A stretch of 64,000 nucleotides of DNA from Norana najaformis (Eukaryota > Annelida > Clitellata > Crassiclitellata > Hormogastridae). The stretch's first letter is position 1. Each line of letters starts with the position of its first letter. A program made the position numbers and the translations under genes. This document shows positions 507 to 58,962 of this stretch, piece by piece. The stretch lies in assembly GCA_964023275.1 (NCBI GenBank), contig OZ029927.1, positions 12,069,226 to 12,133,225 on the forward strand. Reading direction: 5' to 3'. The notes below the pieces were generated by a model that saw nothing but the letters and a program-made list of their open reading frames with translations, had not been told where the DNA came from and did not search any database.

Positions 507-558
507 ATGCGCCGGATGACCTCGTTTGCACTTCTTGCCTTCTTGGCCCCCGTTGCAG
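507..558 (+). CDS. Gene 1 exon 1: signal peptide
   Basis: ATG opens 17 codons, MRRMTSFALLAFLAPVA, with a basic n-region, hydrophobic core and small residues before the expected cleavage point. It ends in phase 1 at GCA-G|gtatcc. The same phase and hydrophobic pattern appear in the signal exons at 20596, 44603 and 54805. The exon is duplicated at 21432-21483 with one change (Phe to Leu at residue 7). Confidence 0.75.
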
Positions 559-3500
559 GTATCCGAGTTCTCCAATCCTCCATGCTTGGCAATGTGCAAA
601 CCAACGATGACACATTATGAAGCTATGCGGCAGGGAGTAAGATAGTGAACCCAGACCAGAATCTCGAGCACCAACAGTCGTGCTGGGATCAGTCACTAAT
701 CCAAAAGTTTGTTACCAGTCTCGAGGCCTCTCTTACCGATGCATATCACCAGGCGCGCTTCAAAGCGATCTGTGCACCGTTGCTGCAGTTTGATTTGGGA
801 TGTCACTTTGGGTGACACCGTAGCTGCTTTATACTTGGCTACTGCAGTACTTCTGTCTTGGCCGTTGGAGCTGCAGAGTTGGCAGCATCTAAAAGATATC
901 AAAACACAATCCACTCCTACCACAGTATCATTTCGTTCCGCTTGCCTTCGAAAATCTGTGCTCAATTAACAACGTTAGGCTAACTTTTATTGTGGAGCTG
1001 GGGCGCTCTCTAACGCTACTATACGGTGACAAAAGGGGAACATACCATCTTTAACAGCGCCTATCAGTTATCATCCAATGATTTACTGTTGTCGCCTTTC
1101 GCAGCACTTTCTCTCCGCCAAAACTTGAAAAGATTAAGCTAACAGAGATTTCATTTCTTCGGAGCCTTTTTTATAGGTCCCGAGGCATCATAGATATCTC
1201 GGGCAAAAAAAATTAAAGATCATTATCGATGCCGTTTCAAGAGAGTGCAACGCGCCTTCTTCATTCTAACAGACATTGTTGAGATTTACACTCTTTGACA
1301 CAAATCCTATAAAGAAAACACAGGTACACATACAGACTTCTCAGACTTCTCTAAACATTGGTTCAAGTGGGCGATAATTAAGACACATAATGAATAAGTT
1401 ATTTCTATTTTCATTAGTTACAATATCGTCACCTGGTATGCAAAGAAAAAGCCAAGGGGAAAGCTGCGTGTTTCAGTGGAACATAAATGGATACTTTATA
1501 ACTTACACTATCCAAAAGGATTCAGCTGGAAATCCCACAGCCTTGGGTCCGAACACCAATCACACATTGGACAATAGCAGAGGCGTGATCAAACTCTGGA
1601 TATGGAACATACAGAAGTCTGATGCCGGAAATTATTTCTTGTCAATCAGCACAGGAACCTCGACTCAAGTGAACTCGGCTGCCTTGCTTTTTGTATACGG
1701 TAAGTGTTTATCTAGTACTGTATAGTACACTGCTTGAAACTGATTCAAGACTCATTATCTTAATTGCTTTATAATTTCTTCGAAACATTACCGCTAATAC
1801 ATAATTTGTAGTTCGAAGGAATTATGAAGTATTATCTTATCTAGCGCAGGCTAGATAACGTCCAAACGTCTCTTCTGGGGTAAAAGTCACTGCTGCTTCC
1901 CGTTGATGCATTTCCCCTAGCCCTAGCCATCCTGTGAGTAAGGGCCATGAAAGTATTCATCATAAATGTTCCAATTTTATAACGTTCTCATTAACCACAC
2001 AGCACCACTGCAGGACTGCATACGCATGTACGTAGGCATGTGTCTAAGCGTATTATTATACAGACTATTTATTTAATTCAGACACTCTTATATAGTATCT
2101 TATTTCCAAAATGTTTTCAGATTGATATGACCTATGTCGGTCTATAAAATATATACTCAAATTTCTTTAGTTAACGCTTACGTGTCTTTCCCGTCAGATG
2201 CTCACAGATACTGTACACAAAACGATGACCAAGTTATGTTTCTTTTTCAATCATGTATTGCATGATATTTATAATATATATATATATATATATTCTTATC
2301 AAAAAACTGTAGAGAATCACCAAGACATCGGCTAATCTTAAGGCAGAGTGTTAAACAGTCATGACTGCAGTTACCTTAAGACGTATGCTAAGTGGAAGAA
2401 TATTGCTAAAAAACCACCTCCACGAAGGCGTTGTGTTGCTTCATGAGAGTCCTGGCCTGATCAGATGAGCGAAGTGAACCACAATGGACGAATGAAGCAG
2501 GTGCACACAGGAGATCACAGAATATATGAGCTTCTGACCCCAGAGTGGTCTTGCCAGTAGGGGTCCCTTAAACTGAAACTGAGAAGATATATGCAGCCAA
2601 TGAAGCGAATTTTAAAATCATTTGGCATTTAAATTGCATCTCCGATCTACTCTTAAGGATGCCTTATAAAACTACAGTAGCCTGCGATTAATTTAAACCG
2701 AATGTTTGCTCAATTTGAATCCTATCAAATATCAGCACAATTCTTTTATCTGCCCTTATATTAAATTTATGAAATAACATTAAAGTTATCTTCTGTTTCA
2801 AACAAATCCTTAATATGACAAAGCCATGATTAACTATTTCAGGTCAACCTATTGCTTTCATAACCCTGGCAGTCGGACGAAATCCAGCTACTGAAGGCGA
2901 TACCATTGAATTAAACTGCACATGTGTTTCTAGTTCATTACCAGTAGCGCTTCCATCTAAAATGTACTACCACTGGTACATTTTTCGGTACGGCTATCTC
3001 CGGAACATTTCCAGTGGACCAGCACTGTTAGAAAATGGAGACACTATTCCTGGATACAGTATAAAAAATGACGGAAGGTCTCTCGTTATCGCTTCAGCTC
3101 AGATTACAGATAAAGATGATGCTTGCTGCTGTCAAGAAGAAGGATCACCTTCCAAACTTTGCTATTCGAGTTCATTACTGGTTAACAGTGAGTATTTTGC
3201 CTATTATCACATTTTTATGCTGTAGCCAAAGGTATAAAAGCCTATATAAGCTCAAGGCGTATGTGAATATCATAAAATTTAAAGACTAAATCACCTTATG
3301 GTCAGCATTTCTAACGAGTTGCATACTTATCTTAATTTTTAGTCCAGCCGAGCTATTATGCAAGGGTTGTTCGGGCAGCACATTTTGAATCCTTTAACCG
3401 GTGAGACGCATGGGCGGAACTACACGCTTATGAATATCAGTAAGCGCTCACGTGACCCACGTCACTTCTCACACGTTGGTAACAGCAATAATAATAAGAA

Positions 3501-6500
3501 ACTGCAGTTGGTCTTAAAAATCGCGGCACGTTCGATGTTGGTAAAAGTAAAACATGCTTGTGAACAGAGTCAAGAAACATAAAGCTACCCATAATATGGC
3601 ACAGAATATTAGACATACTGTGGACAGTTACAGAAAACACTGACTTTCTGATGGGATAATTAATTGATATGTTGCAACTTTCGGTCAGCATACACGACGT
3701 TGGTTTTTCCTTACTTCAGGACATATCTTGTGATTTTTGTGCATTGAAGTATATGGTTAATAGCGTACCTGCGCCTGATGATCATGTAGTGAATGATAAT
3801 AAATAAACCAGTACAGAATGCAACATTTACACTGACATTATCTTTATATTTTCAAACGTTTCACCTGGCATCATCTAAGCTACGCCAATTCCTAATTTAT
3901 TACATTTTGCTACAGATAAAGCTCATGTTGTTAGCTGAACATTAAACTAAATTAAATTATAAATCAAATTACAAAATAGCCTACATTGTCTTATAATAAA
4001 TCCAGGCTGCCTAACAAGGGAAAGTCTCATTCTTAAACAATTTATATATCATACAAGCCGCCTATGCAGGGGCAAGTCATATTTTTTCTGTCTATATGCG
4101 TAGAATAAACTAATAAAATTTATGTTTCATTTTCTTACATTAAGAACGCTTACCACAAACCTTACTTATTTAGAAACCACGCGTGTTTGTTTCTGATCGC
4201 GATCAATGCATAATTCTGACCCATGTGATTGACGCGTCAGGTGAGCCCTTATTGATATTCATAAACGTGTAGCTCCGCCCATGGGTCTCACCGGCATAGG
4301 TATTAAAAACATGCGTACGTGCAAGACATCTTCGAAGTTTCTGAGTAATCATAATCGTAATCGTAATCTCGAGATTTCTACAGCGCCCAACGAAAGCTAA
4401 GTCGCGGGAACCAGCTTATTCACAGGCGCTCAGTCAAAACAAAATCGATAGGCAAAAGGGTTCGGTTCCAGGTCAAGATCCAGGAGTCAGGCAGTCAGAC
4501 AGTCGGACGGCTACGGTGGATGGTGTTTGAAATTGAAGCGAGAAGAGAGATAAGGGGAAGAGGAAGAATCAGGATAAGATTTTTGGAAAGGAAATGTTTT
4601 CAGTCTTGAGTGACAGACCTGCGCAGAAACTGAAAGAGGTGAAGTATTGGTGAGTTCGTATGATTGACCAGACAACTGTCGCAATTCTGGCGGGAGTTTA
4701 TTCCAAAGGGGTGGGGACGAACTTTAAAATGTTTACATTTCGTCAACTCTAGGGCATATGGACACCGTTAAGAACGCAGTAGAAATGTTTCTTACAATAC
4801 AATAGAATACAATACAACACAGTTCAGTGCAACAAAATGCAATTCAATACAAAGGTCTCTTAACTGCACATGGGTTTTATCCTGTGCGAGCGCTTTATCA
4901 GACCTTTTTGCCAAGCTAATTGGCTGTCTCGTGCATGTATGCTAATGTTCTTCGCATGTCTTCCTGTTTGTTGCTTTCTTCCATGAACTATTTAGCTCAA
5001 AGCCGAGCTTTTCCTTGTCCTTTATCATAATTGTGGTCCGTGCGATTGCTTTGAGGCCTCATCCAACTTTTATTGGCTTTACCCACTTTGATCCATACAT
5101 TTTTATATTGCGACAGCAACATTACGTTGTACTAAAGTGGTCAATCTATATAGCGCCTCTTTAAAACAAACTAGTCAGATGCAGTTGCAGTTTTACGGCT
5201 CTGAGGCTATAGGTGAGTTTTAAGGCAGCTAGTTACAACATGATATTGCATTGCATTGCCCTGAGAAACAAGAGTAACACTAAGACATCAGTCCATAAAT
5301 ATTTATTGTTTATTTGCAAGATTTCGAAGCGTCCTCTCGATCAACGATCGAGAATTTTAGCAACTGGCCACCTTTCTAATTGTCATTTGCTTGATGTCGA
5401 TACATTTTTTAAATTTTAGGTAAACCTTACACATATAACTTCTGTCCTGCGAACAGAAAATGCTATGCAACTCTTTCTAACTATGTGTCATGCTCATTCT
5501 TTTTCACTGCAAATCCTCCACTGACATCATATACCAACTGGAGTTTCATAAATACGCCAGGACGCACAACTGAATTGCCTCTGACTATAAGTTCCAACGT
5601 CTCTGATTTAGTATCTCTCTATTTTCAACTCTTCTCGTCGAACTCTTACGGAAATTACTCTGTCACCTTGACGAATAGCATCGGTTCAAGAACAGAAACA
5701 TTCCCAGTTCTTCCTCCAGGTAGGTCTACATAGGTTATCCTAAATATTTTCATAATATTATCTTGGATTTCAAGAGAAGTACTGGGCAGGAAGGCGGACA
5801 TGTAGGAATAGTTATTTTAACAAATGTTCATAAGATTGCGCAATCGTTAATAGATTTTACACATGGTGGGGAAAGTAAACGCGCATTGCACACGCCTCCA
5901 TCAACTATTTGTTTTAGCAGGTGTGGCCTTCGGTTTCAGAATATTTCAGCTGAAATTGGACAAGGGTCATTAGAGAAATCTATTCTTTCCGCTTGCATGA
6001 CCAGCGCTGGCGAATGTACAAAGTGTCCAAAGGGCACCAAGCCGTACTGAACTCGATCGGAAATATTTACGACCTTCTCTCTAGGGTTTCCTGAAATTTC
6101 GAGTGACGTATTAGGACTATAAAGCGCCTATAACAACTTGTCATAAGTTAATTCACACCTTTAAATCAATTTCAATGACACGCCACCTAATATTTGTCGT
6201 GAAATAAATGCTTACTGTAGACCAAAACTTCAAACTGTCCGAAATTTACCTCGGATTGTTCTATAAAATCGATTTTCTTTCTTCCTCTGAAATTTCTCTG
6301 ATGCATCATGCGTCATCGCCACAAGATATGACGCTCCTGCATAAAAAAATAGTCTTAAGATATGGGTTCTAGGCTTCAAGGACATTTCCGCTCAAGCGCT
6401 TTTACGACAAATATATTCAGAACAACTTTTTCATTACCGCTTACATGATTTGACAATTTTATATTATATATGATTTTCTTAGTTTGAAAACTGCTGCTTT

Positions 6501-9500
6501 ACTGGAACGATGCATGACGATATTCAGAATATTACTTTCAGCATCTATTAAAAGCTACAATCTAATGACTAAGCATCAATCGATGCCGCTGAGTAACTGT
6601 GAGTGAAGGAATTGCTCGAGATCCCTGCAACAGTATTCGTCTCGCTTACCATGAACCGAATATGCTAAGGGCGAGCCATCCTTTACTTCATGATCGTTAT
6701 TGAGTTTCCAACCTCTCAATTCGACAAGGCAATACATATGAGCTCATTTTGTGGCACCGAATTGTCTTTCTAAATGCTTAAGAAAAATGCAACTCGTCCT
6801 TTTATATTCAGAGACCGGAAGTAATGTAATGGCTCCAGGTGGTTGTGTTTAAATTTGCCGAAGTAATTTCTGTGCACTTTCTTTACTTGAAGTTTTGGTC
6901 TACAGTACACATTTACTTGGAGGTTTAGTTTTACATTTCTCGCATTCTTACTTTTATTTCTGCTTTATAAAAGAAATATTGTTTCTCAATAATTTATTTG
7001 CTCGCGATGCTTTCAGTGGAAATTATAGCCGGCCTTTGGTGTCTTATTAAAGCCCATCCAATTTCATCGTTTCAGGCTTGGACGCTTTAGCGTATACCGA
7101 GTTCTTCATTTTTTTAACATAACCGCAATCATTCCTATGGTTTCTCACTGAACAAAGAAACCAGTGACAAACAAATCTCATATTGTAAAAGGTAGTAATA
7201 ATTGGCCAGCCAAATTATCTTTCGTCTGTAACTACCCAGAAAAATTAGCAAATGTTGCACTCTTCATCTGATGCTCTGACTTTTGTGGTGCCTAGACCAC
7301 TTACGAGACTGGATTATCGACCTCTCCCGGTCGATGGTTCTAGCCTTGGGAAATCGCTGCCAGTTTCTCTCCAACCTGGAAGTTCTGTAATATCAGTTAG
7401 GTCTGACCTGATGTCTCCTCTTTTCGGATTATTTATCCTTTACAGCCCATCTATCGGTCTTAGGGGCCTCACGGATCTCGACTGATCTGTCACGCTGATT
7501 GTGATTTGGGAATATGGTGTATGTAGAAGCGACCATCGTTTGTTGCCTTGTGCATCATGAGGTTGGCGCTATTTATTAGATTAGAATAGATTCCAATGAT
7601 TTGATATAAAGTATAGCCAGCCGATTATATATCATTTATGCATCATCATTAAGTGATAGTATTGTGCTAAAGTGATTTAATCTTTCCAGGTCCACCTGAT
7701 GTACCATCGAATTTCAGTGTACAGTACGCGACACACAGTCTCGTCTCGCTTCAATGGCGCTGCATGTGGTATAACGGCGACCAACAAACAGTTATTGTAC
7801 GACTAATAGATGTTACAAACAACGAGGAACTAGATACTCAAATTGTAACTCTTCACACATATTGCTACGATTCAACCTATAGCACGCTGTTTCAAAACAA
7901 CATTCAACCAGAGACAAAATACGAGGCCAGCATCTGGTCAACTAATGCACTTGGATCCAGTAACGTCGTCATGTTGGCCGTCAGAACTCTAAAAAGACTC
8001 ATCTTTGATACTTCTTCCGCTAATATATTAATTATGGAAAATCAGGCTACAATCAATTTCCGCGTAGCAGATTCTCCTAAAGCTGCACTGTTTCTAAATG
8101 TAACTTGCTGTGTTGAGATAACGACTCTGTGCAGCAGCAAATCCTACCTCATAGCCAACACAGACAATCAAATTGTTTATGACATTTTACCAACTGGAAC
8201 TGAGTATGTATTCGACTTCACCGTATATGATACTGATGGTTACACCTACACGTCTACTTTGGCGATCGTGAAAGGCGTGAGAGTGTCGAGAATACAATGT
8301 GAGTCTGCTGCTGTCAAAATCACAAAAACTGTATGAGTTTCTAATACACGTCAGCCACATTGAGAAATGCCGAGGAGAGCTTCGGAATCATAAGCAAATG
8401 TGGTCTATTCCAATATAATCTATTGACTTCTATAGCTCCATTATCATGGCATCAATCTATGTGGTCCATTCATGTCATAATCGCAGACAAAAATCATATA
8501 TCGTTGGAGAAGCCGGATCGAATTTCAATTGGTCAGAGAAACTAAAATCCAGGCTATGGTGGGTAAGCGAGTTGAAAGAGATGTGACTATGCTGTTCTAA
8601 GCTACGAGGAAAGGCTTGAATGATGTGGGTTACAATCTTTGATAACATGATTGAGCAAAGGAGGCGCTGTTGAAGCTTAATATTATTAATCTTGAAAGGA
8701 AGCAGTACCAACAAGCTCTTTTTAAAGCGATCGTTCGGCTTAGTGTGTGCGCGATGATAATTTTGATTTTATACAAATCCTACAACAGATAAACCAATCG
8801 CCGTGACACCCAACCCGGATACAGAGAAAGCGAAGGGTCTCCTCATTGCAGTCATTGTTTTGGCCATCCTCTTGGGATTCGCTATCTTAGGACTAATCGG
8901 CGGCTTGATAGCTTTTCTTGTCTGCAAAAGGAGTCAAAAGCACCAGCCAAGCAACTTATACGAGGTAGGCCTATGCCTTTCTAAAAGAAGCGTAGAAACG
9001 TAAGAATAAATATTCGGCAATACCTCAGAACAAATGATTCCGCCTCAAATGCAACCTAAGATATAACAAGTGGGAGTAACTAATTTCGTTTTAGATATAT
9101 AATTACTTAAAGTAATTTTTGAAACTTTATTGATAAATATAAACTATATTTTCTCAATTCTGAGACATCAGACTGGAAACATGTCATCGTCCTATATTAA
9201 CTGCAGTCTTTTTGTGATGCTATTATATTAGCTACCTGATGGGATAGACAAGAAACACTTCTTCTTCAGTGTTCTGCCGTTAGGGAGGTCCAAGAGTCCA
9301 ACGATTCCACTCTTCCCTGTTCTGTGCCCCTTCTTCAACTTCTTTGTAGCTTCGTTTTCTTTCTTTATTTATCGTCCAGTCCAACAGCATATTTCTTGGT
9401 CTTCCTGGAACCTTCTTTCCTTTAATTCTTCCTTCAATTTCTGTCCTCGGGAGAGAATTTCCATGCAGTAAGCGTCCAATCCAGTTCGTTGTCTCCTCCT

Positions 9501-10884
9501 TATTGTGTTGACCAGTGTCCTTTCTTCTTGTACCAAGTGCAACCCCTCTTCATTGGGTTTACTATCGTTCCAACTGATATTGGCCAGCCTTCTCCATATC
9601 CACATTTCAAATGCCTCGAGTTTCTCAATTTCTGCCTTTCCAGCAGTTCATGTCTCAGAACCATACAGTGTTACACTCCACATGAGACATTTTACCATTC
9701 TTTTCTTTAGATCCATATTCAGTCTTCCTTTCAGAAGTTCTCCTCTCTTCCAGCATGCTTCTTTTCCCATAGCTGTTCTTCTCAATCTCAGTACTGCATC
9801 TGCAGTCATCTCATAGCAAACTTTCCAGATAACAGAACTGGTGGACTTGTTCGATTTCCGTACCATCGACTACAGTATTCACTCGTTTTCCTTCGCATTT
9901 ACTCAATCTAATCACCTTTATTTTCTTTCTATTAATCTTCATACCATATTCTTCCGATTTTTTGTTCAATGCATCCATTATTCTTTGTAGTTCAGCGTTG
10001 ATATCTGTAACCATGGCCTGATCATCTGCAAATCTTATGGCATTGATCAGATTCCCCCCAGCCTTGACTCCGTCATCCATATTCTCTAAGAAACATTAAC
10101 CTTCTCAAAGCGCCCGATACTGAAAAGTAATTTGATCACAATTAGTGATGACTAGTGGTTCAGCCTTTTTGATTTAGATTGTTGTGTATTTTCATGGTGA
10201 CTCTGACGTCATTGTTACGTGAGAACTATTGATGGGATTACATATTTCAGTAATTTAGTAATACCACCTTGTTGGGTAACAAGAGTGATACATCCGCTAA
10301 TAGCCTTGATGAGCTTTATTTACAATATATCTTGTCTGAATGTACAGAAAATTGTATCACAATGTGTTAGGTTGATAATTATTATAATTCAACAGAGTTA
10401 CACATAGAATTAACGCCATGAGAAACAATTGTTATCTTATCCTGTAGCTTACATACAATGGAATGAAGCTCACGCCTACGGTTCGCAGTCAAATGGCTAA
10501 TATTTATTCTAAAAAGTGCTTTTTAAATCATACTGACGCAGCACACAATCAGCATAAGTTTTAAAAGTATTGGCGTTGACCTTTGCTGTTTCATACGTGT
10601 CATTTACATTGTTTTGCCGTTAACGATCGTTATTTTGTGTCTATGTACATTCTGCGCATAATACATTTGGCTGTGCTTTCGCAAACTAAAGCGTGATGAC
10701 CACTTTAAAGACTGTATTATGTTTTCTGTGCTGGCAGCCACCACCAGCCGGCATAACTCGGCCCTCTAATGCGAACGGACTAGACACGACAACACACGAG
10801 TATGAAGCAGACAGCAACTATGAACAAATATCGAATCCGACAGTCGACAGTAGCAATTACACACCGCTCCATGTTCTTCCTTAA
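507..10884 (+). CDS. Receptor gene 1: Ig-Ig-Ig-FN3-FN3-TM-ITAM-like type I membrane protein (spliced)
   Basis: Model: join of 507-558, 1418-1699, 2843-3187, 5420-5719, 7690-8298, 8789-8964 and 10738-10884. The phases chain perfectly (1,1,1,1,1,0) and give a 636-residue product ending in TAA. Order: signal peptide (1-17), V-like Ig (about 18-111), cysteine-containing Ig (about 112-226), cysteine-poor Ig (about 227-326), two FN3-like domains (about 327-529), transmembrane helix (about 545-575) and a 48-residue final tail exon. The tail holds YEQI and YTPL nine residues apart with acidic residues before the first tyrosine, an ITAM-like pair. Likely a cell-surface recognition receptor signalling through SH2 proteins; this is inferred from architecture. 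Introns carry LINE and SINE debris, including an antisense non-LTR fragment in the last intron. A candidate AATAAA lies 240 bp after the stop. Family unnamed; paralogs are genes 2-4. Confidence 0.8.
1418..1699 (+). CDS. Gene 1 exon 2: V-like Ig domain lacking canonical cysteines
   Basis: Acceptor ttag|TT and donor G|gtaagt, phase 1-1, 94 residues. The B-strand core reads SCVFQW, with Trp where V/I-set domains have Cys. The F strand reads DAGNYFLSIS, with Leu where Cys follows the D-x-G-x-Y motif. One Cys remains in the B strand but has no partner. The last strand ends ALLFVYG. Close relatives at 22343, 26466 and 45169 share all these traits. Confidence 0.85.
1898..2575 (+). repeat. Gene 1 intron segment shared with 22825-23486 (and partly 1-213)
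   Basis: Non-coding intron 2 sequence nearly identical to the region downstream of the duplicated V exon at 22343-22624. Here it runs on past the point (about 2560) where the second copy meets the assembly gap. It includes a (TA)n run at 2270-2293 that is shorter in the second copy. Confidence 0.8.
2843..3187 (+). CDS. Gene 1 exon 3: Ig domain with cysteines
   Basis: Acceptor ttcag|GT, donor A|gtgagt, phase 1-1, 115 residues. The B-strand Cys is in IELNCT, the C strand has the aromatic YYHWY, followed by the family signature NISSGP and GYSIKNDGRSLVIASA (E strand). The F-strand region reads DDACCCQEEG, where the Tyr of D-x-x-Y-x-C is replaced by Cys, giving three adjacent cysteines. Gene 2 keeps the normal GIYCQ at this point. 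Confidence 0.85.
3378..4312. repeat. Inverted-repeat element, arms about 3378-3470 and 4211-4312
   Basis: The + strand arm beginning ccggtgagacgcatgggcgg is matched, in reverse complement, by the arm ending at about 4295, with roughly 80-85% identity over about 90 bp. The arms flank about 740 bp of AT-rich sequence with no ORF of note. This suggests a non-autonomous foldback or terminal-inverted-repeat transposon in intron 3 of gene 1. No transposase or clear target duplication is visible. Confidence 0.55.
4338..4790 (-). mobile_element. CR1-like LINE 3' fragment (ATTACG tail family)
   Basis: Read on the minus strand this ends in a short ATTACG repeat preceded by the 3' UTR word shared with 26330-26440 and 51540-51640 (gcgcctgtgaataagctggt). 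Upstream it carries degraded codons for the C-terminal end of a CR1/L2-type reverse transcriptase. It is 5'-truncated and sits in intron 3 of gene 1. Confidence 0.7.
5420..5719 (+). CDS. Gene 1 exon 4: cysteine-poor Ig-like domain
   Basis: Acceptor ttttag|GT, donor CCTCCAG|gtaggt, phase 1-1, about 100 residues. It has the C-strand NWSF and an F strand YGNYSVTLTNSIGS, in which the usual Cys after Tyr is Val, then the G strand TFPVLPPG. This copy has unpaired cysteines in the A/B region (FCPANRKCY, VSCSF). The paralogous exons at 29029, 48782 and 56095 have the same frame and the same missing pair. Several N-x-S/T sequons are present. Confidence 0.85.
6195..6925. repeat. Putative TIR element with 21-bp perfect inverted ends
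   Basis: Positions 6213-6233 and 6887-6907 are exact reverse complements (tactgtagaccaaaacttca plus one base). Weaker complementarity extends about 15-20 bp on both sides. The enclosed roughly 650 bp is AT-rich without a transposase-like ORF and contains a SINE-like segment. A non-autonomous DNA transposon is the simplest reading. Confidence 0.5.
6530..6660 (-). mobile_element. SINE fragment (body only)
   Basis: Shares aagcatcaatcgatg and gtgagtgaaggaattgctcg with 53310-53400 and, in the opposite sense, with 46080-46150. These copies lie in different introns and intergenic regions, so this is a dispersed family. The tRNA-like head is not clear here. Confidence 0.5.
7250..7610 (+). mobile_element. 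CR1-like LINE 3' fragment (TTAGATTA tail family)
   Basis: Broken translation on + (GSSLGKSLPVSLQPGSSVIS, SVRSDLMSPLF) resembles the W-N-S-L-P terminal motif region of CR1/L2 reverse transcriptases. It ends in ggcgctatttattagattag. It lies in the intron just before the FN3 exon of gene 1. Confidence 0.6.
7690..8298 (+). CDS. Gene 1 exon 5: two FN3-like domains in one exon
   Basis: Acceptor tttccag|GT, donor T|gtgagt, 609 bp, phase 1-1. It opens with the FN3 start PPDVPSNFSV; the B-strand Trp is in SLQWRCMW and the F-strand signature is QPETKYEASIWSTNALGSS. A second, more diverged FN3-like unit follows (LFLNVTCC, then GTEYVFDFTVYDTDGY). Gene 3 has the same exon at exactly the same length (609 bp) and gene 4 a 636-bp version. 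Gene 2 lacks it. Confidence 0.85.
8393..8720 (-). mobile_element. CR1-like LINE 3' fragment (TTAGATTA tail family)
   Basis: Minus-strand translation includes SFNSLTHHSLDFSFSD, the same terminal segment as the 14215-14640 copy (ISFNSLTHRRMASGFSD). The 3' end is near 8395 in gene 1 intron 5. Confidence 0.6.
8789..8964 (+). CDS. Gene 1 exon 6: transmembrane helix
   Basis: Starts in phase 1 after acacag and ends in phase 0 at GAG|gtaggc. A short Pro/Asp-rich linker precedes a roughly 27-residue hydrophobic helix (LLIAVIVLAILLGFAI, LGLIGGLIAFLV) followed by the stop-transfer CKRSQK. The juxtamembrane Cys and the core AFLVCK are identical in gene 2. No charged residue is in the helix, so no classical adaptor-pairing site. 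Confidence 0.85.
9250..10083 (-). mobile_element. 5'-truncated non-LTR retrotransposon (reverse transcriptase C-terminal half)
   Basis: Minus-strand pieces carry the RT core box F-A-D-D (NAIRFADDQAMV), then MKINRKKIKV, then RMVKCLMWSVTLYGSET, WIWRRLANISW and the downstream RTGLDAY stretch. These are successive parts of the palm/thumb and C-terminal region of an RTE/L1-like polymerase. Frameshifts break it, so it is dead. It sits antisense inside the last intron of gene 1. Confidence 0.8.
10738..10884 (+). CDS. Gene 1 exon 7: cytoplasmic tail with ITAM-like motif
   Basis: Acceptor ctggcag|CCA, phase 0, stop TAA. Acidic EYEADSN precedes YEQI; YTPL follows after nine residues; the tail ends HVLP. 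Genes 2 and 4 have the same two-tyrosine arrangement in their last exon. This fits the YxxL/I-x(6-12)-YxxL/I immunoreceptor pattern, though phosphorylation is not shown by sequence. Confidence 0.85.
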   Translation, partial: PPPAGITRPSNANGLDTTTHEYEADSNYEQISNPTVDSSNYTPLHVLP

Positions 10885-44602: not shown

Positions 44603-44660
44603 ATGAAGTTTGTGGCCGTTTTTTGCCTTATGATCCTATGTGGGACCAGTGTTTTTTCAG
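44603..44660 (+). CDS. Gene 3 exon 1: signal peptide
   Basis: MKFVAVFCLMILCGTSVFS then G|gttagt, phase 1, the same 58-bp length as the gene 2 signal exon. Confidence 0.75.
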
Positions 44661-47600
44661 GTTAGTTCACAAAATTGAATATTTCTTAAATATTTATATG
44701 GACAATAATAGAGTCTGCATTGCAAAATTTAAATGAGAACATAGCTTGCTATGCAGGTCTTAGCAACTTTTTGATAATCTTTAAAATTTAGCAGAAATAT
44801 ATAACTGTAAACAATTCATAATGTCGTTCATATAATTTAAATCTTGACTTCCATAATTAAAATCTTTAGGCCCTATCCTATTTAAAAAATACTACTGATG
44901 GTAATTTAACCCAGTATGCGAGGTCAAAAAAAGTTGAGGGCAAAACAGCGTAGATGCCCATATTTCTTTTAACACTTACAACCCAACGTATCGCCTCTCT
45001 AAGTTGTCAGAAATTTGGTAATACAATATGCTAACCGAAAGGTGGCTAAAGTCTTCTGCTAGTTGAAAAAGCTTAAGACAATAATGAAATATTATGGTTA
45101 TTTATTTTTGAAGTGTAATTATATTACTTGTAAATAAACATATATATGGAATATATTTTATATGGTAGTAACAATATCGTCACCTGCTTTTCAAAGAAAG
45201 AACTTAGGAGAAAGCTGCACATTTCGGTGGAACGTCACAGGAAGTTTTACAACTTACACTATCAAAATTCTGTCAACCGGAAGTCCTACTGCATTGGGTC
45301 CAAACACAAATCATTCGTTCAACAGCATTAAAGGCGTGATCACACTTTTCATATGGAACATACAAACATCTAATGCCGGAACTTATTCCTTGTCAATCAG
45401 CAGAGGACCTTCGACTGAATCGAACTCAATTGCCTTGCTTTTTGTATACGGTCAGTCTGTGTTCAGTAATTACCTACGACGATAAGGAACTTGATTTCTC
45501 AACACCTTTTGTTTTAATATTATCACATGCATATACCCTAAAACTTCTTATTAACGCCTCCGGCGTTTATTTTACGAATAGTACTTAACCCCCGGCTGCA
45601 TTTGGAGACCTCGCTTAGAGGCCGACGTTGATTTGCACAGATTGTTTGTACCCCGGACCCCGGTAAAATAAAGGATTTTTACCCCGAATACCGCTAACTG
45701 CACCGCTAAAGCACGACTGCACGTGTTTCTTAGTTTTGTGTGCCATATGTTCCTATGACGTAATCATAGGATACACAATGGTACCGAATATCTTTATCAT
45801 ATCGGTGCCAAGACTAGAACCATGGAGCCATTGTTCATTAAAGACCGGTGTTTAAAGAGGCGGGTGTTTATTTAAATAAATCATTTTATCCTCCTGCGGC
45901 ACCGGCGTTTAATTTGAACCCGGCGCTTAAAAGAAGTTCTACGTTAGACACTTGTGCATAATGAGGCGTAGGCCTAAGTATTATTTCTGTGATATAAAAA
46001 AGATACATCATAGCCGATAGGTTAGAGCGCTAGGTTTGTAATGCAAAGAGTAGAAGTTCGAACCTCCCCGAGACGATTATTACCTAGGGACCTTAAGCAA
46101 GTCCTTCATTCAAAATTCATCAGCGCTATCGTCTGATGCTTAGCCACTAGACAATCTTCAGCATCATCAACATCAGTGGCGTGCCCTCTCCGGAGTGTAA
46201 CCGTTTCCCCGACTCTTTGCTAACATTCGCAGTCTTGAGTCAATCTTCAGATTGCGTGTGGCACAAAGTTAAGTGGGTAAAGAACCCCCTCTAGCGTCTG
46301 GGTCTATGAGTAATTTGGTCGTCCCACATGTCTTTTACAAGGCTTCATGGAGGCTGCAATCAAAGCTGTGAGCGTGCTTGCGTGATCATGCCTGCCATCG
46401 TAATATAATGTAATGTAACAAACACTTATATAGCGCTCTTCAAGGCACCTTGCGAAGTACCCAAATACCCGGAATCTTCTTGATTTGATCATCTTTGAGA
46501 TCGGGGTCTGTCTTCTGCGCCTGCATTTTTCTGCATTGGTGACGTGTGCAGTCTATGGGTTTCGCATAATTCTCCTCAAGTACTATTGTTAGAAGAAATC
46601 CAGTTTCCTCATTAGATAGTGGTGCTTAATAAATGCAGAAATAACAAAAACTCAAAATAATATATGATATTTCCTGAGCTCTCCTCACCTTCGCGGATCT
46701 TCATCCAATCTCAACTATGTCTATCTGTTTTGATCTAACCTTATCTTATCTTGCCTCATCCAATCAAATCTTATAATGCCAATGTAATGTAAAAGCCTAT
46801 TATTTTTATTCCTGGAATATTTTACGACGCTATGGTTTATGACTTCACTACTAGGCCTGTGTAATTATAACCAACATTGATTGATTTAAATTAAACTAGT
46901 AACAGATTTGCAAAAACGAGAATCTTTTATTATTTTCAGCTGTTCCTTACGCTACCACAATTCTAGCTGTTGGACGGAGCCCAATTATTGAGGGTAATAA
47001 AAGCGAATTGAATTGTTCAGCCTATTCTTATTCGTTACCGGAAGCGTATCGAACAAAAATGTACTACTTCTGGTCCAATATCTTTTATCCCTCTCTCCGA
47101 AACATATCCAGTGGACCTGCAGTGCTGCAAAATGGTGACGTTCTTCCTGGATACAGTTTTAAGAATGATGGAAAAACTCTCGTTATTGCTTCACCTAAGT
47201 ATCCAGAACCCTGGTGGTTATGCTCAGTTCAAGAAGAAGGATCACCTTACAAAACTGCCAATTATGGGCCTGGCATAGGGGTCTACAGTGAGTGTCATTG
47301 CTTTTTTATAATAGACATATTAAGCAGAAATAGCAAGATGCTGGTTTACAACTTTTATATTGTAGGTGACAAATCTGCCTTTCCTCACAGTTTCTCATTT
47401 CACGTAGGCCTTTAAGCTTACACGAAACTGTTATGCACAGGCCACTTACGTTTATCGCTGAATGATTTTTCTAAATATTGAGCGTTGAGGTGCAACCTGA
47501 ACTTCCTGCACAGGTTCTGCCTTCAATAGCTGTGCAAAAGGGTGTAACTATATTCCTTGAAGCTATTCAGCCAGTTTTAACCCGCCTATAGAATCTAATA

Positions 47601-50311
47601 GGCCTTCGATTTTCTGGGGTGAAATAGTTTCTGCCTGTCTTCAACTGCCCACCCATGCAAGGGCCAATTCTCGGATTCTCGCATGTATCTGGCACACAGC
47701 GAGAGCATCTGCACTTCCTGTTTGGAAGGACCTTGCTTGCTGTTACTGTCCTAGCATTCATAAGATTTATGTTTAACTTCAAACCAGCTGATTCCTGCAG
47801 TTCGCTGGAAACATGCTATAGTGTACAGTTGCCTACATCACCTTGATCACATTTGTTGCCCGTGCTTTCCTGCATCTTTCATGAAAAGTTATAAGATAAA
47901 TAGGTGTTTGAAACCTATTAATTATATCGACAACAAATCAATGGCCTGTACAGAGGTATCGTATCATACGCAATTAGTTATCGTGGATCCGAATTAACAG
48001 GAAAACTTCTTTGAGACGGAATTTCAAAGTAGACATCGATGTCACTATCGTATCAGGAGTCATTAATAATTAAGAGATGATCTCAAGCAACTTTCAAACA
48101 CTCTGATGCTGATTTTATATTGTATCAAACTATTGGAGTTCATCGCAAAATGGTGTCACATGTTTATTTACATCGGCGGGGGATGACTTTCTTAAGGCCT
48201 TTCTCAATGACTCTGTCGTAGTCTTATTTAAAAGGTGGCAAGTTACCAAGTGAGCCACCTGAGATGACGTTGTGACGCTGCTCAACGAGCGTTTTCACCC
48301 AATTACGACTCGCACCTCTTTAGCTGTGGTGGACAGCCATGTTAGAGGCTCTTTCGAGAAAGACTATTAAGGCGTTATATAAATGTTGTATAGACCTATA
48401 TACAAGTACATTAATGGGCATGTGTATGTTACACGACGGTTAGAGTTATTATGATGATAATACAGTTTGTAAATTTGGTATAGGCTGGATTTTCATCAAC
48501 TTTGCTACTAAACGTAGATTTCCTTTGCCTTTAATCTTATACTTATACTAATACTTAGACCAAAACCTGGTCTTGTACTTAAACTTAAACTAATAGGCCT
48601 ATTTATACGGTAAAGTAGACTTAGACTTATAGGAAGGGTTTTATGCCTTCCACTAAGCTTTCTTTCTGTATTGGAACATCATTATTGCCAATTTTCCAGT
48701 CTAATAATTATTCTATAGTTATATTTGAGGCTTTCAGATTTCTTGATTAATTCGTTTAAAATGCATTTGCTTATGTTTTAGGTAAACCCTACACACATTT
48801 CTTTCGTCCAATGAGCAGAAAATTCAATACAGCGCTTTATTCCTCAGTAAATTTCTACCTCAATTACCGGGCAAATCCTCCATTAATATCTTATACCAAT
48901 TGGAGTTTCGTAAATGCTTCAGGAAGTACAAAGGAATATTCCGGCGCCAACGATATTTTGCTCAATTATCAATTTGAACTCTCATTTACACTTGACTCAG
49001 TGAACATGTATGGAAATTACTCCATCACTTTAACCAACAGTTACGGATCAATAACAGAAACTTTCCAAGTTCTTCCTCCGGGTAATTCTAATTGATTCCA
49101 AAATGTAAATTCCTATAATACGGTTGCAACGCATAAGATATCAATCGATGTTCAATCATAATCACTGTGATAGGAAAAGTCGAGATCTATGATGGCTGGC
49201 CAGAGATCTAGCTCGTTAAATATGTTAATGGATTTACATAACAGCATTGTGATTTAGGCAGTAATCAAAGCAAATTACTGCCAAATTATTGTTAATGCGA
49301 CTGGACAGTAATCGCAATCTATACTGGCCAGTAGCACAAACGTAGATAACGCTGATCATTAGTTAATTCTCGGTTTTTCAGTTGTATTGTCGATCACATT
49401 AAGTTTGTGGCTATGCTGCACAGCGATTAAACTTTAAGTTTAACTCGCTGTGCAGTATTGCCATCAAATTTCTTACTCCAGTTAAATTCGCCTGGGTGTG
49501 AGGACAACTAAAGTAGGCCTATTGAACGACTTTTCATTGCACTCTTAATCATGACCAGCTAAATGCATGAATTCAGCTAAATCAGCATTCTTGACTTGTA
49601 TTTTAATGCGCTACTGAATGTCTTCTGTTTCCTTTCTTCTAAATATATATAGGACCTCCTGACACTCCGTGGAATTTCAGTGTACAATATGTGACACACA
49701 GCCTCATATCCCTTCAGTGGCGTTGCATGTGGTTTAATGGCGCTCAACAGACAGTCTTTGTACGCCTAATGGATGTTGCAAACAACGAGGAAGTAGAAAC
49801 TCAAACTGTTTCTCTTGCAACAGATTGTTACAATTCATCAAACAGCACACTATTTCAAAACAACATTCAACCAGAGACAAACTACGAGGCTAGCATCTGG
49901 TCATTCAACTCATTTGGTTCCAGTAGTGTCGTCAAGTTGGCCGTGAGAACTCCAAAAAGACTCATCTTCAACACTTCTTCCGATGATATATCAATCATGG
50001 AAAGTCAGGCTACAATCAATTTTCGCATAAAAGATTCCACCAAAGATACAATGTGGCTAAATGTAACTTGTTGCTTTGAGTTCACGACTCAGTGCCGCAA
50101 TAAAGGGTACCTCATAGCCAGCACAGACAACCAAATCGTATATGACAAATTACCAACTGGACATGAATATGTATTCGACTTCATCGTATACGATAGTGAC
50201 GGTTACACCTACACGTATACTATAGCGATTGTGAAAGGTCTGCGAGTGTTAAGAACAGAAGGTGGGTCCGTTGTCATAAAAATCAGTTATATAAAGCTCA
50301 TAGGTCATTGA
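44603..50311 (+). CDS. Receptor gene 3: Ig-Ig-Ig-FN3-FN3 without a recognisable TM/tail (spliced)
   Basis: Model: join of 44603-44660, 45169-45450, 46940-47287, 48782-49081 and 49653-50261, all phase 1-1. It has the same ectodomain order as gene 1, including a 609-bp FN3 exon. No transmembrane or tail exon could be found in 50262-54804. Reading through the last donor (gtgggt) gives 16 more residues and a stop at 50309-50311, which would make a secreted protein of about 548 residues. Alternatives are a decayed gene, an unrecognised TM exon, or splicing over gene 4's signal exon into its downstream phase-1 exons. The missing intergenic block after gene 3 agrees with deletion of its 3' end. Confidence 0.7.
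45169..45450 (+). CDS. Gene 3 V-like Ig exon lacking canonical cysteines
   Basis: Acceptor ggtag|TA, donor G|gtcagt, 282 bp, phase 1-1. B strand SCTFRW and F strand NAGTYSLSIS again replace the Cys pair by Trp and Leu. It is close to the gene 1 V exon (shared LGPNTNH and ALLFVYG). The acceptor lies in TATA-rich DNA without a pyrimidine tract. Confidence 0.8.
46008..46160 (+). mobile_element. tRNA-derived SINE
   Basis: Head tagccgataggttagagcgc (A-box-like) and agaagttcgaacctccccg (B-box), then a body agggaccttaagcaagtcct that is shared in reverse with 53310-53400. A detached tail-like tgcttaataaatgcagaaat occurs at 46622. It lies in gene 3 intron 2. Confidence 0.75.
46940..47287 (+). CDS. 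Gene 3 Ig exon (second domain)
   Basis: Acceptor tttcag|CT, donor A|gtgagt, phase 1-1, 116 residues. It shares SELNCS, MYYFWSN, NISSGPAVLQNGDVLPGYS and KTLVIAS with gene 1, but the F-strand region is EPWWLCSVQEEG, so the Cys and Tyr environment differs from gene 2. Confidence 0.8.
48782..49081 (+). CDS. Gene 3 cysteine-poor Ig exon
   Basis: Acceptor tttag|GT, donor CCTCCGG|gtaatt, phase 1-1, 100 residues. It has NWSFVNASG and MYGNYSITLTNSYGS, and no Cys in the entire domain. Confidence 0.8.
49653..50261 (+). CDS. Gene 3 double FN3-like exon
   Basis: Acceptor tatag|GA, donor G|gtgggt, 609 bp. PPDTPWNFSVQY, SLQWRCMW, QPETNYEASIWSFNSFGSSS and HEYVFDFIVYDSDGY follow gene 1 closely. High identity to gene 1 exon 5 across the whole exon suggests recent common origin or gene conversion. 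Confidence 0.85.
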
Positions 50312-50945: not shown

Positions 50946-51009
50946 TAATTGTGAAGTGGAAGAAAATGAAGAGGGTGAGTAGGAGTAAGAGAAAGAGAAG
51001 ACGTTGATG

Positions 51010-54804: not shown

Positions 54805-54859
54805 ATGAAAGCTCCTCTCTTCATGATTCTTACGCTCCACGTCAACGCCGCTCTGGCAG
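54805..54859 (+). CDS. Gene 4 exon 1: signal peptide
   Basis: MKAPLFMILTLHVNAALA then G|gtaagt, phase 1. Good signal-peptide shape with Ala-rich cleavage end. Confidence 0.75.
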
Positions 54860-57800
54860 GTAAGTTAGTCTCAATCGTAGCTGTTAGAACCATCTAGTAT
54901 ATGACAACTGCCCACGCTAATTGATGTTATGCCAGATGAATATGATCTGCCCAACATACAGCCGATTTTTGTGATTTTTCGAACAATTGTATTGCGAAAT
55001 TGGGCTTTCCAAGCCACGTGCAAGAGGATTGTACGTATGAGCTTAATAAATAAGTTGTTTAATGGTACCTCATTTCTCTGCTGTAACCTGCTGAAGTATC
55101 AATTGCATCATCAGTACTTCTGCCGTATCGGTTGAGTATCCTAGATGCCTAACTGTGTACCAGAAATGCAAATCAATACTTACATAGACCACTGATGCTA
55201 CATAATTGGTAGAAATAAATAAATCAATTGAGTATAAAAAATGTATGTCGTGCACTAATGCGGATTAGATGTCATTTTAGTAAAGCAGTTTTCATCTTTA
55301 GCTTAGTAAACGATGCAATTCTTGATTTTAAGACATATGGGGCCTGCATATACAGGATGTACAACAGTGAACACCCTATGCACATTTTATTATTTATATA
55401 GCCGCTATGAACTTATACTGTTTTGGTTGAGTCACTTTGACGAAATATATGATATGCACTTCGTATGTGCGTGTGTGTGTGTGTGCTGTTGACGTCGAAG
55501 CCCTATTGTGCAAATGTGGGCCGATGAATTAGGGAGCAGATCAAATTTGAATGATTGAATATAGTACCGTGCATGTATATACATGCAGCAAATGTTTCTG
55601 CTTCAGTGGTTTTATACTCGCCTATGGTTTTAACCCGATTTGAAAAAGTCCAAGGAGGTAAGGTTAGGTTAAAACGGTAGAAGAATATAAGTTGCATTTA
55701 TTGCCGAAACGTTTTTTATAAAAAAATAGTTACTTGCTTAAAATTAAAATAACACACATGCTGAAATTTCCTCATACATGTAGGATTACTAGGTTTCTAG
55801 CGGCCAAAGATTGCCATTGGTTTATGCAGGTTATTCATTTTGATAGATGACTTAGGGCTTCGCAGTATGTTATGTAGGTTCACAAAGTGCTTAAATTGCT
55901 GAGAGTGTGCAATAGAAATAGAAGTAAGTCAACAATATTCTGAAAATACTAATAAATGAGTTGGCTGTATTTTTAGATTTAAAAAGTAAATATTTGCAGA
56001 TTTTTGGACAGTGTCAATGGACACCATAGGACGATCATTTGTAAAACGTACGGAACAAGTTATGGACTAGAAAACAAAGTGTTTTGTCTTTCAGATAAGC
56101 CACTCGTGTTGTCAACAAATCCGCCGAGTAGAAAATTTAATGCAATCGTAGGAGAAAGAGTTTACTTGTCGGTTCCTAGCATCAGCGCAAATCCCTCTCT
56201 TATAGCAACAGGGAGCAACTGGACTTTCGTCAGTTCACAGGGAATTGTCCTCGACTTACCAGATAACTCAGTGGCTGGTTCCTATGCGATTCCATCTTTG
56301 TCATTCAATCTCCCGTCGGTCAGCTACTACGGCAACTACTCTTATGACTTGACCAATGCCATTGGAACTACTACGGTTACTTTCGAGGTTCTTCCTCCAG
56401 GTTTGTGAGGGAACACAAACTCGTCACAATTCATCAAAAGACACTTGCTTCTGTCAAGATAGTCTAGTACACAAATTTACATTAATAATTACATAATAGT
56501 ATAGGCCTATTGTATGTATGTATCTGGCTATTTATGTAACGCCTTTTAAGAACCTTACAAAGGCGCTAAAACTTGACTATCTAACAGATCTGAAATTGTA
56601 AGATTTAAAAGGAGTTGAAAATGTTTCTTGAGCTGTCTTTCACTTTTAGTGCATTTGCTTCCGAATGTGTCACACATATCCGCATCTTAATTAAAACTAC
56701 ATTGAAGATACTAAAGGAAGAGCTGGAGCAGAGCAGAGTATAAAAGCAGAATAAATGAACTCATGTTTCTAGAGCTCCTGTTTACCTGCGCGCACAGTTA
56801 CTTGAAACAAGTTCCTTTCTTAAATAATTATTATTATTTCTATATTTATTAAAGCGCCAATATCTAATGACAATATTCCTGAGCAATTGGGTCTGAAGAA
56901 CTTGCTTCCTAACTGTCTCAGAGGAGCTCAAACTCGCACACTCCCCATTGCAAGGCAAGCGCTAAAAAGAAACTTATTGTGTTAACGTACTGTGAAGTCT
57001 ACTGTGAGTTAGGTGCTGGACTTAGGTCTATTGCAATAAATATTTATATTTTCTGTTATCTCCACACAAAAACAAAGACAGCAAAATGGATTCCATGTAA
57101 ATAAACATGAGAGACTTGTCATATAGGTTCGATTATTAACTAGCGGTTGTAGCATACAGGTATACAACAGCTAACAACTTGTCTCTTCTTATACATGTTA
57201 AACAGGGGTTCCAGATCCGCCTGCGGCATTCAAAGTCGTCTACGTAACTCACTTCACCATCATGCTGCAATGGAATTGTATGTGGTCAAACTTCAACAGC
57301 CGTCTTCAGTACGTCTACACTCTCCTGAGGGAACTCAAAAGCAACGTCACAGTAGGAGCTTATAACTATTCCGTGAGTGGCACTTGCTATAGTTCAGCAT
57401 ATAATGTCCTCTTCTCTTCGGCAATACAACCGGATACGCAATACGAAGCCAGCGTATGGTCGACCAACAACATTGGATCGAGTAATGTTACTCAACTCAA
57501 CGTGCGATCTGCAAAAGTCTTTCGTTTTGTGGTGTCGTCCGATTCGATTAAAATAAATGGAACAACAGCAGTTATTAATTATCTGGTCGAAAGTGGAAAC
57601 ATAACGCGTTTCTACGTTACTTGTTGTTACGAATTAACGGCTGCCTGTACCCCTAATGTCTTGTTTTACGTTAACAACACCTTTAGCCAAGTCAGTTTTT
57701 ACATTGGATCTTTACCGAATGGCACAGAATATGTTTTTGATTTCACTCTGTACGTTGGTATCGGCTATACTGTGGGATCGGTGAAGGGCATAAGAGTTTC

Positions 57801-58962
57801 CACTGAGATTGGACTGACGACTATTTCTGCTGGAAATACTGGTTAGTTAATAAAAGCTGTTTAAACATCATCTAGTATTTACTGTTTTGTCGCCACTAAT
57901 TTACTGTTTCTTCTTTTCCATAGAGCATACCTTGTATATATGTCTGTGTGTATGTATGCATGTTTGTATGTGTCATTGTTATCACTGGACACAATGAACA
58001 GCTAAATATGATAACCACTTTTAACTGTTAAAGCTGTAAATATAAGGTTAAATCAGATAGCTGTGATATTTATGATGACAGTCTTAATAACAACACCGAG
58101 TGATTTTTCAACTCGTTATTTTCTGCATGATTTTCAGATGGCACCAGTGGCTCAAGCGACTTGGCTCCGGCAGTTATTGTTTTAGCTGTACTATTGGCTA
58201 TCGCTGTATCTGCGATAGCTGGAATGATGCTTGGATTTTTCATCTGGAAGAGGCGTCATTGCCTCCCTACATCCCAACCTCAGGAGATCACAAATAATCT
58301 TCCCGTTTGTCATTTCATTTTCATTAAGAATGTTAATAATTATAATGAAAAGCTTCTATAGCGCCAGTGTTTGCTGCACAAGGCAATGATCCATGGTGCC
58401 GCAGTCAAACCAATACCCAGAAAGTCAGTCCACTGATGTTATGTCATACATGATTATATTGCGCCTCTTCCAGGCATCTGCTCAGTAATGTTTGCAGTCC
58501 AGCTACTGCCGAACAGAACAAAATGAACCAATCAGACGTCTAGTTTAACTGTGAGGTCAATGTTAACGTGTAGCAAAAAATAAAAATAGAGGTCAAAAGG
58601 CCAATGGTAAGGTGTGATTATTACCGCACGAACATATTGCAAATGGATACTTATTTAATTTACACCACAAAGTCATTTTTGTTGCAACATTATTCCAAGC
58701 CTACACTATAACCTACATATAATTTAAGACATGTATATAGAAGGGTCACATACAGCGGAAATTAAGAACGCTATAACGATTAATGTTTTCTGTTAATAGA
58801 CTAATAACAAATCGATTTTCAATTAATCGAACTGTTTTTTTTGTATTACAGCCGAATTCAGGAACGAGTCGCTCGGAAGCTGGCGAAGAAAACCAGTATG
58901 AAGAGGTGGACCGGCAGAGAAGAGAAAGCCGGGTCTACGCGAATCTGGATCATACTAAATGA
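54805..58962 (+). CDS. Receptor gene 4: Ig-FN3-FN3-TM-ITAM-like, lacking the first two Ig exons (spliced)
   Basis: Model: join of 54805-54859, 56095-56400, 57206-57841, 58138-58304 and 58852-58962; the frame closes to 424 residues. Domains: signal peptide (18), cysteine-poor Ig, two FN3-like domains, helix, tail. The V-like and cysteine-Ig exons are absent from the 1.2-kb first intron. Sequence is the most diverged of the family. The TM exon donor (CCC|gtttgt) is weak. Tail motifs are YEEV-x9-YANL after acidic EAGEENQ. A polyadenylation signal lies 133 bp after the stop. It could encode a shorter partner or an ancestral-type receptor; function is inferred. Confidence 0.75.
56095..56400 (+). 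CDS. Gene 4 cysteine-free Ig exon
   Basis: Acceptor tttcag|AT, donor CCTCCAG|gtttgt, 306 bp, phase 1-1. It has SRKFNAIVGERVYLSV (B strand without Cys), NWTFVSS and YYGNYSYDLTNAIGT. No Cys at all. Confidence 0.8.
56500..56640 (+). repeat. Dispersed 'tataacgccttttaagaacc' repeat
   Basis: About 130 bp related to 11755-11880 (shared ggagttgaaaatgtttcttg end) and partly to 37790-37860 and 13770-13810. Small non-autonomous element or satellite-like repeat; class unknown. Confidence 0.5.
56830..56965 (-). mobile_element. Degenerate SINE fragment
   Basis: Contains atatctaatgacaatattcc, gagcaattggg and gaagaacttgctt segments related to the 53285 SINE. Head region weak. Confidence 0.4.
57206..57841 (+). 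CDS. Gene 4 double FN3-like exon
   Basis: Acceptor aacag|GG, donor G|gttagt, 636 bp, phase 1-1. It has PDPPAAFKVVYV, MLQWNCMW, QPDTQYEASVWSTNNIGSSN and GTEYVFDFTLYVGIGY, with many N-x-T/S sequons. Confidence 0.8.
58138..58304 (+). CDS. Gene 4 transmembrane exon
   Basis: Acceptor ttttcag|AT. Ser/Gly linker, then helix APAVIVLAVLLAIAVSAIAG and MMLGFFIW, stop-transfer KRRH. The 3' donor is CCC|gtttgt, phase 0. A small-residue pattern (A/G/S) runs along the helix. Confidence 0.75.
58852..58962 (+). CDS. Gene 4 cytoplasmic tail with ITAM-like motif
   Basis: Acceptor tattacag|CCG, phase 0, 36 residues. YEEV and YANL are separated by nine residues, and the tail ends DHTK. The second motif has Arg at -2, so it is not a canonical ITIM. 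Confidence 0.8.
   Translation, partial: PNSGTSRSEAGEENQYEEVDRQRRESRVYANLDHTK

Follow-up and report, generated by a model that had tools for sequence, protein, structure and literature searches.

Vertebrate KIR, CEACAM and NITR clusters are tandem arrays of immunoglobulin superfamily (IgSF) genes with phase-1 exons and activating or inhibitory tyrosine motifs that follow birth-and-death evolution, and the Alr family of the cnidarian Hydractinia reportedly has a V-type domain, as Huene and colleagues are said to have described in 2022. In Hydractinia symbiolongicarpus, dozens of Alr loci lie in one interval, together with pseudogenes, and encode type I membrane IgSF proteins for which immunoreceptor tyrosine-based activation or inhibitory motifs (ITAMs or ITIMs) have been reported (PMC11067881, PMC12065747). 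Similarly, the fester co-receptors (FcoR, 53 loci) of the tunicate Botryllus schlosseri form a large linked family with a V-type immunoglobulin (Ig) domain, further Ig domains, a transmembrane (TM) segment and tyrosine motifs (PMC12065747). Here we analyze a 64,000-nucleotide stretch of the genome of the annelid Norana najaformis (contig OZ029927.1, here C15, positions 12069226-12133225 of the forward strand), hereafter called the window, which carries four IgSF genes (genes 1 to 4) and a partial copy. The window covers part of a single large tandem complex, whose receptor genes combine IgSF and fibronectin type III (FN3) domains, and the array extends far past both window ends.

As in Hydractinia Alr, the loci of the C15 array are numerous and confined to one genomic interval; the array belongs, however, to another phylum, has a single exon for its two FN3-like domains and showed no sequence relation to Alr, no Alr protein being among the matches of two word-based protein searches, whose reach was limited. 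FcoR proteins contain a sushi domain, whereas the annelid genes have the FN3 pair instead, and no Pfam match to a sushi domain between Ig domains was obtained for ten window exons and four homologues. With the KIR, CEACAM and NITR clusters the annelid locus has in common the tandem IgSF array, phase-1 exons and tyrosine motifs; those vertebrate families are not known to contain FN3 domains, and the canonical Ig disulfide is impossible in the annelid Ig1 copies checked. The likeness is one of organization, and homology is not claimed. Adhesion molecules of the NCAM2, contactin and PTP-delta type resemble the annelid proteins in overall fold and in their order of Ig and FN3 domains, but we know of no such paired-tyrosine tail and no tandem arrays among them. 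Our best reading is that the array may work like Hydractinia Alr or Botryllus FcoR.

The window's own assembly (608 Mb, 17 contigs) was searched with exons of the window genes. The query with the exon encoding the FN3 pair (FN exon) gave 56 matches, 55 of which lie on the plus strand of C15 at 11.717-12.549 Mb and include partial ones and pieces of single exons (for example three at 12.417 Mb); the remaining match is weak, contains stops and is located outside the array on the minus strand at 11.416 Mb. With the exon for the first Ig domain (Ig1), 48 matches were obtained, all on the plus strand of C15 at 11.714-12.544 Mb, a few of them partial or with stops. Neither query matched any other of the 17 contigs. 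Ig1 and FN matches together cover 835 kb (11.71-12.55 Mb), and 41 of the 48 Ig1 matches are followed directly by an FN match within 12 kb. Two interspersed subfamilies can be distinguished by identity to gene 1, subfamily A with genes 1 and 3 and subfamily B with genes 2 and 4. Of 30 fetched FN exons, 24 have a TM-like exon in the 1.5 kb downstream and 18 have an Ig3 exon in the 1.5 kb upstream; of 30 Ig1 exons, 22 have an Ig2 exon in the 1.5 kb that follow. As introns can exceed 1.5 kb, these counts are lower bounds. Of 30 other Ig1 exons, 20 are preceded within 1.5 kb by candidate signal exons, often of the MK(F/I)LLSC..LHITRTFS type. Members without a TM exon may be secreted.

A previous sequence-only reading had described the window as a tandem cluster of putative recognition receptors composed of phase-1 Ig and FN3 exons, and the structural part of this description is borne out, with the corrections given below, by splice sites, open frames and the likeness among copies in tblastn comparisons. 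In gene models rebuilt from exon homology and splice sites, all ectodomain exons (Ig1, Ig2, Ig3 and FN) have an open frame, an AG acceptor, a GT donor (with a single GC donor, at Ig3 of gene 2), a length divisible by three and phase 1-1, TM exons are of phase 1-0 and tail exons begin in phase 0. The FN exon is 609 or 636 bp long and holds the code for two FN3-like domains. Exon sets differ between genes just as had been proposed, gene 2 lacking FN, gene 3 lacking TM and tail, and gene 4 lacking Ig1 and Ig2. Within the window, copies resemble each other far beyond chance by tblastn, with 71% identity between the FN exons of genes 1 and 3 (E 6e-101) and 47-97% identity between Ig1 of gene 1 and the other Ig1 copies.

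A search of 5.8 billion proteins revealed three homologues, P0001 (58% identity, 604 aa, encoded on a 2,722-nt contig), P0002 and P0003, and a profile search added a fourth, P0004. All four read uninterrupted through the domain order of the window genes on contigs of 1,844-2,722 nt, which are too short for introns like those of the window; therefore, judging from these sequences, the joining of exons in the window genes is real. The best stretch of P0001, 72 residues of Ig1, is 78% identical to sequences of the window or of the fetched loci, and the best stretches of P0002, P0003 and P0004 stay below 50% identity. Given these identities, the four proteins come from other species or from paralogues outside the fetched set. 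The identities also speak, though not decisively, against slow one-to-one conservation of these genes between species, which the sequence-only reading had named as a sign against a recognition locus. The only species-named match from these two protein searches was a generic Ig protein of a spider (E 3e-7, profile search).

For all ten window exons analyzed with Pfam, every match remained below the curated cut-offs, so that Pfam by itself is too weak for these domains. The Ig1 model is a beta-sandwich of V or I frame with eight strands, none of which was read as C''. Ranked by Z, its closest folds are V domains, with V domains of T-cell receptors nearest, and as modelled Ig1 is a V-type domain. 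The B-strand cysteine is present in 26 of 27 Ig1 copies checked and the F-strand cysteine in none of them, so that the canonical B-F disulfide is absent from this set. The two domains of the FN exon were recognized as FN3-like by fold or profile.

Cytoplasmic tails were compared in a set of 18, consisting of 13 tail exons recognized in 20 stretches downstream of FN exons, the tails of genes 1, 2 and 4, and those of P0001 and P0004. A relaxed paired-tyrosine motif, Y-x-x-[ILVMT]-x(6-12)-Y-x-x-[IL], occurs in 15 of the 18 (0.16 expected from shuffled tails), and a strict ITAM, defined as Y-x-x-I/L, 6-12 residues and Y-x-x-I/L, in five (0.06 expected). ITIM-like motifs were found in four tails, which is near chance (1.2 expected). 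From these sequences the tail motif is better called ITAM-like than ITAM.

The history of the array was followed in 22 genes, out of 41 units, in which Ig1 and FN are linked. Distances for the two exons are correlated (Mantel r 0.86, p 0.0002), and in 12 of the 22 genes the nearest neighbor by Ig1 differs from the nearest by FN. The clearest exon mosaic, as judged from sequence distances, is the gene at 12.226 Mb, which differs from the 12.185-Mb gene by 3.9% in Ig1 and 13.6% in FN, and from the 11.781-Mb gene by 8.6% in Ig1 and 0.7% in FN (p 5e-6 and 3e-9 by Fisher's test, and p 0.0008 and 0.019 when fourfold sites are used). Among eight pairs hand-picked once distances had been seen, divergence of Ig1 and FN differs in five (p < 0.05) and does not differ in three (p 0.72, 0.33 and 0.08); at fourfold sites, no such difference was obtained in two of five pairs. 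At 12.35-12.36 Mb, three successive Ig3-FN modules lie in one stretch, two of them with identical FN exons. The loci concerned (L028, L029 and L018; C15:12.3525-12.3624 Mb) form a tandem duplication of 3.15 kb, probably within one gene. Larger blocks recur about 70 kb and about 340 kb apart and are, at the places compared, about 86-98% identical including introns. These blocks could have arisen by segmental duplication or could in part represent two haplotypes within a single scaffold, and the copy number is therefore an upper-range estimate.

Ratios of nonsynonymous to synonymous substitution rates (dN/dS; Nei-Gojobori) were calculated for Ig1 in 25 of the 30 fetched loci, leaving out the near-duplicate L040, L060, L062 and L063 with stops and the partial L064, and for FN in 28, leaving out the broken L035 and L036. 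The median was 0.41 for Ig1, from 298 usable pairs out of 300, and 0.31 for FN, from 377 out of 378, and the closest Ig1 pairs reached up to 1.9 on few changes. Within 21 Ig1 exons of subfamily A, the corresponding ratio of proportions of differences (pN/pS) was 1.1-1.3 in the N-terminal segment, the BC loop and the C strand; the FG loop stood at 1.0, and strands A', B, C', D and F had values of 0.1-0.35. When all 25 Ig1 copies were included, the BC loop (1.13) and the C strand (1.19) still exceeded 1, and values for the N-terminal segment and the FG loop fell to 0.68 and 0.81, respectively.

On balance, we take the array to be an expanding immune-type receptor complex, a germline repertoire that would most likely serve recognition of non-self, altered self or allogeneic cells. 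The organization proposed earlier is strongly supported by the single-locus array of 835 kb, the V-type tip, the ITAM-like tails, the exon mosaics, the repeated blocks and the intronless homologues, and from it we infer the recognition role, be it immune or self. A full member is a type I membrane protein with a signal peptide, the V-type Ig1, Ig2, Ig3, two FN3-like domains, a TM helix and a short tail, usually with two spaced tyrosines (Y-x-x-I/V/M ... Y-x-x-L). Building on gene structure, array, modelled domain folds, tyrosine pairs and exon mosaics, we infer ligand binding, signaling and an immune role as follows. Ig1 at the tip would bind a ligand on another cell or on a foreign surface, the phosphorylated tyrosine pair would recruit tandem-SH2 (Syk-type) kinases in ITAM fashion, and members devoid of TM would be secreted forms. 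Because all ectodomain exons are of phase 1-1, unequal crossing-over and conversion could delete, duplicate or swap domains in frame and so generate a germline receptor repertoire.

The immune-type reading is plausible, specific and testable, and it draws on anatomy, namely a variable tip, a stalk of Ig and FN3 domains, an activating-type tail, membrane-bound and possibly secreted forms, exon exchange and broken copies. Several points weigh against it. Overall dN/dS is below 1, and values above 1 come from few substitutions. The V assignment relies on a model without a C'' strand, so that an I-set-like domain is possible, and Foldseek places a titin domain first by E-value for Ig1; the fold matches of the whole ectodomain are adhesion proteins of the NCAM2, contactin and PTP-delta type. 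Thirteen of the 18 tails miss the strict ITAM, either because V, M or T stands at +3 after the first tyrosine or because a tyrosine pair is lacking. The relaxed motif was set post hoc from the tails themselves, which were found by mutual similarity and, being related by descent, are not independent. The profile search of annotated proteins yielded the generic spider Ig match alone, so no functional relative helps, and the genomic evidence comes from a single assembly.

Two special cases of an immune-type complex differ in what Ig1 would bind. Members might be receptors for pathogens or symbionts, an expanding set of sensors for non-self, comparable to NITR of fish or FREP of snails and without a role in allorecognition, a possibility that we place on the unlikely side. 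Gain and loss, large repeated blocks, copies with stops or only partial, and the faster evolution of Ig1 than of FN would suit such sensors, but the tails look like those of receptors signaling at cell contacts. In an allorecognition (histocompatibility) complex, allelic Ig1 domains would instead recognize one another, or a polymorphic ligand of self, across cells, with match or mismatch deciding on acceptance, as in Hydractinia Alr. Dozens of paralogues within one interval, the V-type tip, the ITAM-like tails and the shuffling of exons match published descriptions of both Hydractinia Alr (PMC11067881) and Botryllus FcoR (PMC12065747), and Table 1 of PMC2248247 lists earthworms and leeches among the invertebrates whose graft rejection is specific and shows memory. 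However, clitellates are solitary and need no control of colony fusion, and numerous paralogues suit pathogen receptors equally; we regard allorecognition as quite improbable. More speculative still would be an annelid histocompatibility complex in the full sense, a germline-encoded, polymorphic, exon-shuffling locus that would underlie the specific rejection of grafts and the natural-killer-like activity of coelomocytes in earthworms and leeches, with ITAM-like tails and a V-type domain whose disulfide has been lost, and that would have arisen independently of Hydractinia Alr and Botryllus fuhc. In a 2026 review on earthworm coelomocyte immunity the receptors named are Toll-like receptors, LBP/BPI and CCF-1, and the word immunoglobulin does not occur in its main text (PMC13295531); no earlier report of an annelid V-set or ITAM cluster was found among the papers listed by a search of open-licence literature.

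A non-immune family for cell adhesion or cell identity (neural, gamete or tissue) would agree with the fold matches of the ectodomain. Adhesion genes are usually dispersed and stable, and the single array with broken copies, exon losses and paired tyrosines in 15 of the 18 tails is unlike them; we regard such a family as unlikely. Rather doubtful, and compatible with the other explanations, is that part of the array is inflated by haplotypes, the blocks at 11.96-12.08 and 12.30-12.42 Mb and those at 11.83-11.86 and 11.90-11.93 Mb being alleles of two divergent haplotypes placed in one scaffold. The collinearity of these blocks and their identity down to the introns would be expected in that case, and a divergent second Alr1 allele was retained in the Hydractinia assembly (PMC11067881); yet identity within the 340-kb block pair varies from 86% to 98% between neighboring genes, the 11.78-Mb gene pairs with 12.23 Mb (96%) outside the block order, and the window genes are independent of the recurring blocks. 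Inflation of this kind, if true, would mean extreme polymorphism and thus favor an immune-type complex. With several dozen V-type, ITAM-like receptors mapped to one array, the locus offers a concrete, testable place to look for non-self recognition in a worm, and if the immune-type reading is true, annelids would be the third lineage outside vertebrates, after cnidarians and tunicates, with clustered IgSF recognition complexes and tyrosine-based tails.

In the window, all receptor exons lie on the plus strand and were placed from splice sites and exon homology. Gene 1 consists of Ig1 (1418..1699; also supported by the fold model), Ig2 (2843..3187, with copies in the window), Ig3 (5420..5719), FN (7690..8298; fold of the homologue P0002), TM (8789..8964) and a tail exon (10738..10884) that encodes YEQI-x9-YTPL, with strict ITAM spacing, and a stop. 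The signal exon proposed for this gene in the sequence-only reading (507..558) is probably unused, its donor GTATCC being poor. Signal exons of relatives are of the type described above and end in the donor CAG^GTGAGT, and a counterpart for gene 1 with this donor, MKFLLSCWLLALHITRTFS, is located at C15:12068926-12068983 and starts about 300 bp before window position 1. The stretch that separates the TM exon of gene 1 from its tail exon carries, on the minus strand, a fragment of a reverse transcriptase (RVT_1, E 9e-8; 9811-10095).

When the window was scanned for signal exons that end in a phase-1 donor, six candidates emerged; three are unrelated to the receptor genes. One of the others, MKILLSCWLLALHITRTFS (20596..20653, donor CAG^GTGAGT), belongs to the partial copy, which comprises only this exon and an Ig1 exon (22343..22624) that is 98% identical to Ig1 of gene 1 in the genome search and lacks Ig2-to-tail exons of its own. 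Gene 2 contains an Ig1 exon of subfamily B (26466..26747) without either canonical cysteine, Ig2 (27523..27885), Ig3 with its GC donor (29029..29331), TM (31079..31230), for which a second in-frame donor exists 6 bp earlier, and a tail exon (31735..31872) with YEAV-x10-YTPL and an uncertain 3' end, the frame being open beyond it. The scan of the window found no signal exon for gene 2, and the partial copy and gene 2 may therefore constitute one chimeric gene, though an assembly gap of 10 N (23487-23496) intervenes between the Ig1 exon of the partial copy and gene 2.

Gene 3 has a signal exon (44603..44660), Ig1 (45169..45450), Ig2 (46940..47287), Ig3 (48782..49081) and FN (49653..50261, supported by tblastn copies), and no TM exon was found between this FN exon and gene 4. 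In gene 4, a signal exon (54805..54859) is followed by Ig3 (56095..56400), an FN exon of subfamily B (57206..57841, confirmed by genome search), a TM exon with a weak donor (58138..58304) and a tail exon with YEEV-x9-YANL and a stop (58852..58962).

Between and around these genes, other elements were noted. At 23487-25700, the 10-N gap is followed by a GC-richer segment with minus-strand open frames at 23847-25482, which, as we read them, resemble a large DNA transposon (Maverick-like); three frames of this segment gave no Pfam match. A repeat occurs at 25938-26440 and 51084-51660, 83-92% alike over the two stretches compared; its first copy stops some 30 bp short of the acceptor of Ig1 in gene 2, whose upstream exon it may have displaced. 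At 33146-36163 on the plus strand, an apparently intact open frame of 1005 aa looks by eye like a non-LTR retrotransposon with endonuclease and reverse transcriptase.

With regard to published tunicate data, the Aplidium turbinatum genome paper names Diadumene lineata in its Table 1, and the chromosomes in its Table 2 sum to about 313 Mb as compared to 605 Mb, so that the tables seem to be mixed up (PMC9171297). Elsewhere in the assembly, the Ig_3 profile placed none of its 150 scored matches (out of 2360 candidates) inside the array, and dense canonical Ig_3 runs lie away from it at C1:63.62-63.64, C3:5.53-5.58, C7:27.21-27.24, C8:33.10-33.11 and C13:15.23-15.27 Mb, two of which fall within open frames longer than 1,900 residues. 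Eryth_link_C, the annelid erythrocruorin linker family, gave 29 genome matches, many of them weak. The best one aligned over 124 residues with hemoglobin linker chain L1 of 2gtl (193 bits), a structure presumably from Lumbricus terrestris, and more weakly with the other linkers. For an HSP70 exon of the assembly, the best matches are 98% identical; among the listed matches that carry a species name, the leech Helobdella shows the highest identity (93%), and a moth entry with a slightly higher bit score is only 83% identical. In a tree built from the query and 30 of the 120 listed matches, the exon clusters with Helobdella and further sequences (support 0.97). HSP70 and the linkers thus indicate a clitellate annelid, and the idea of a colonial tunicate was dropped. 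A second array at C5:36.72-36.88 Mb, separate from the receptor array, consists of about a dozen open frames, each some 130-170 aa long, that match Eryth_link_C weakly.

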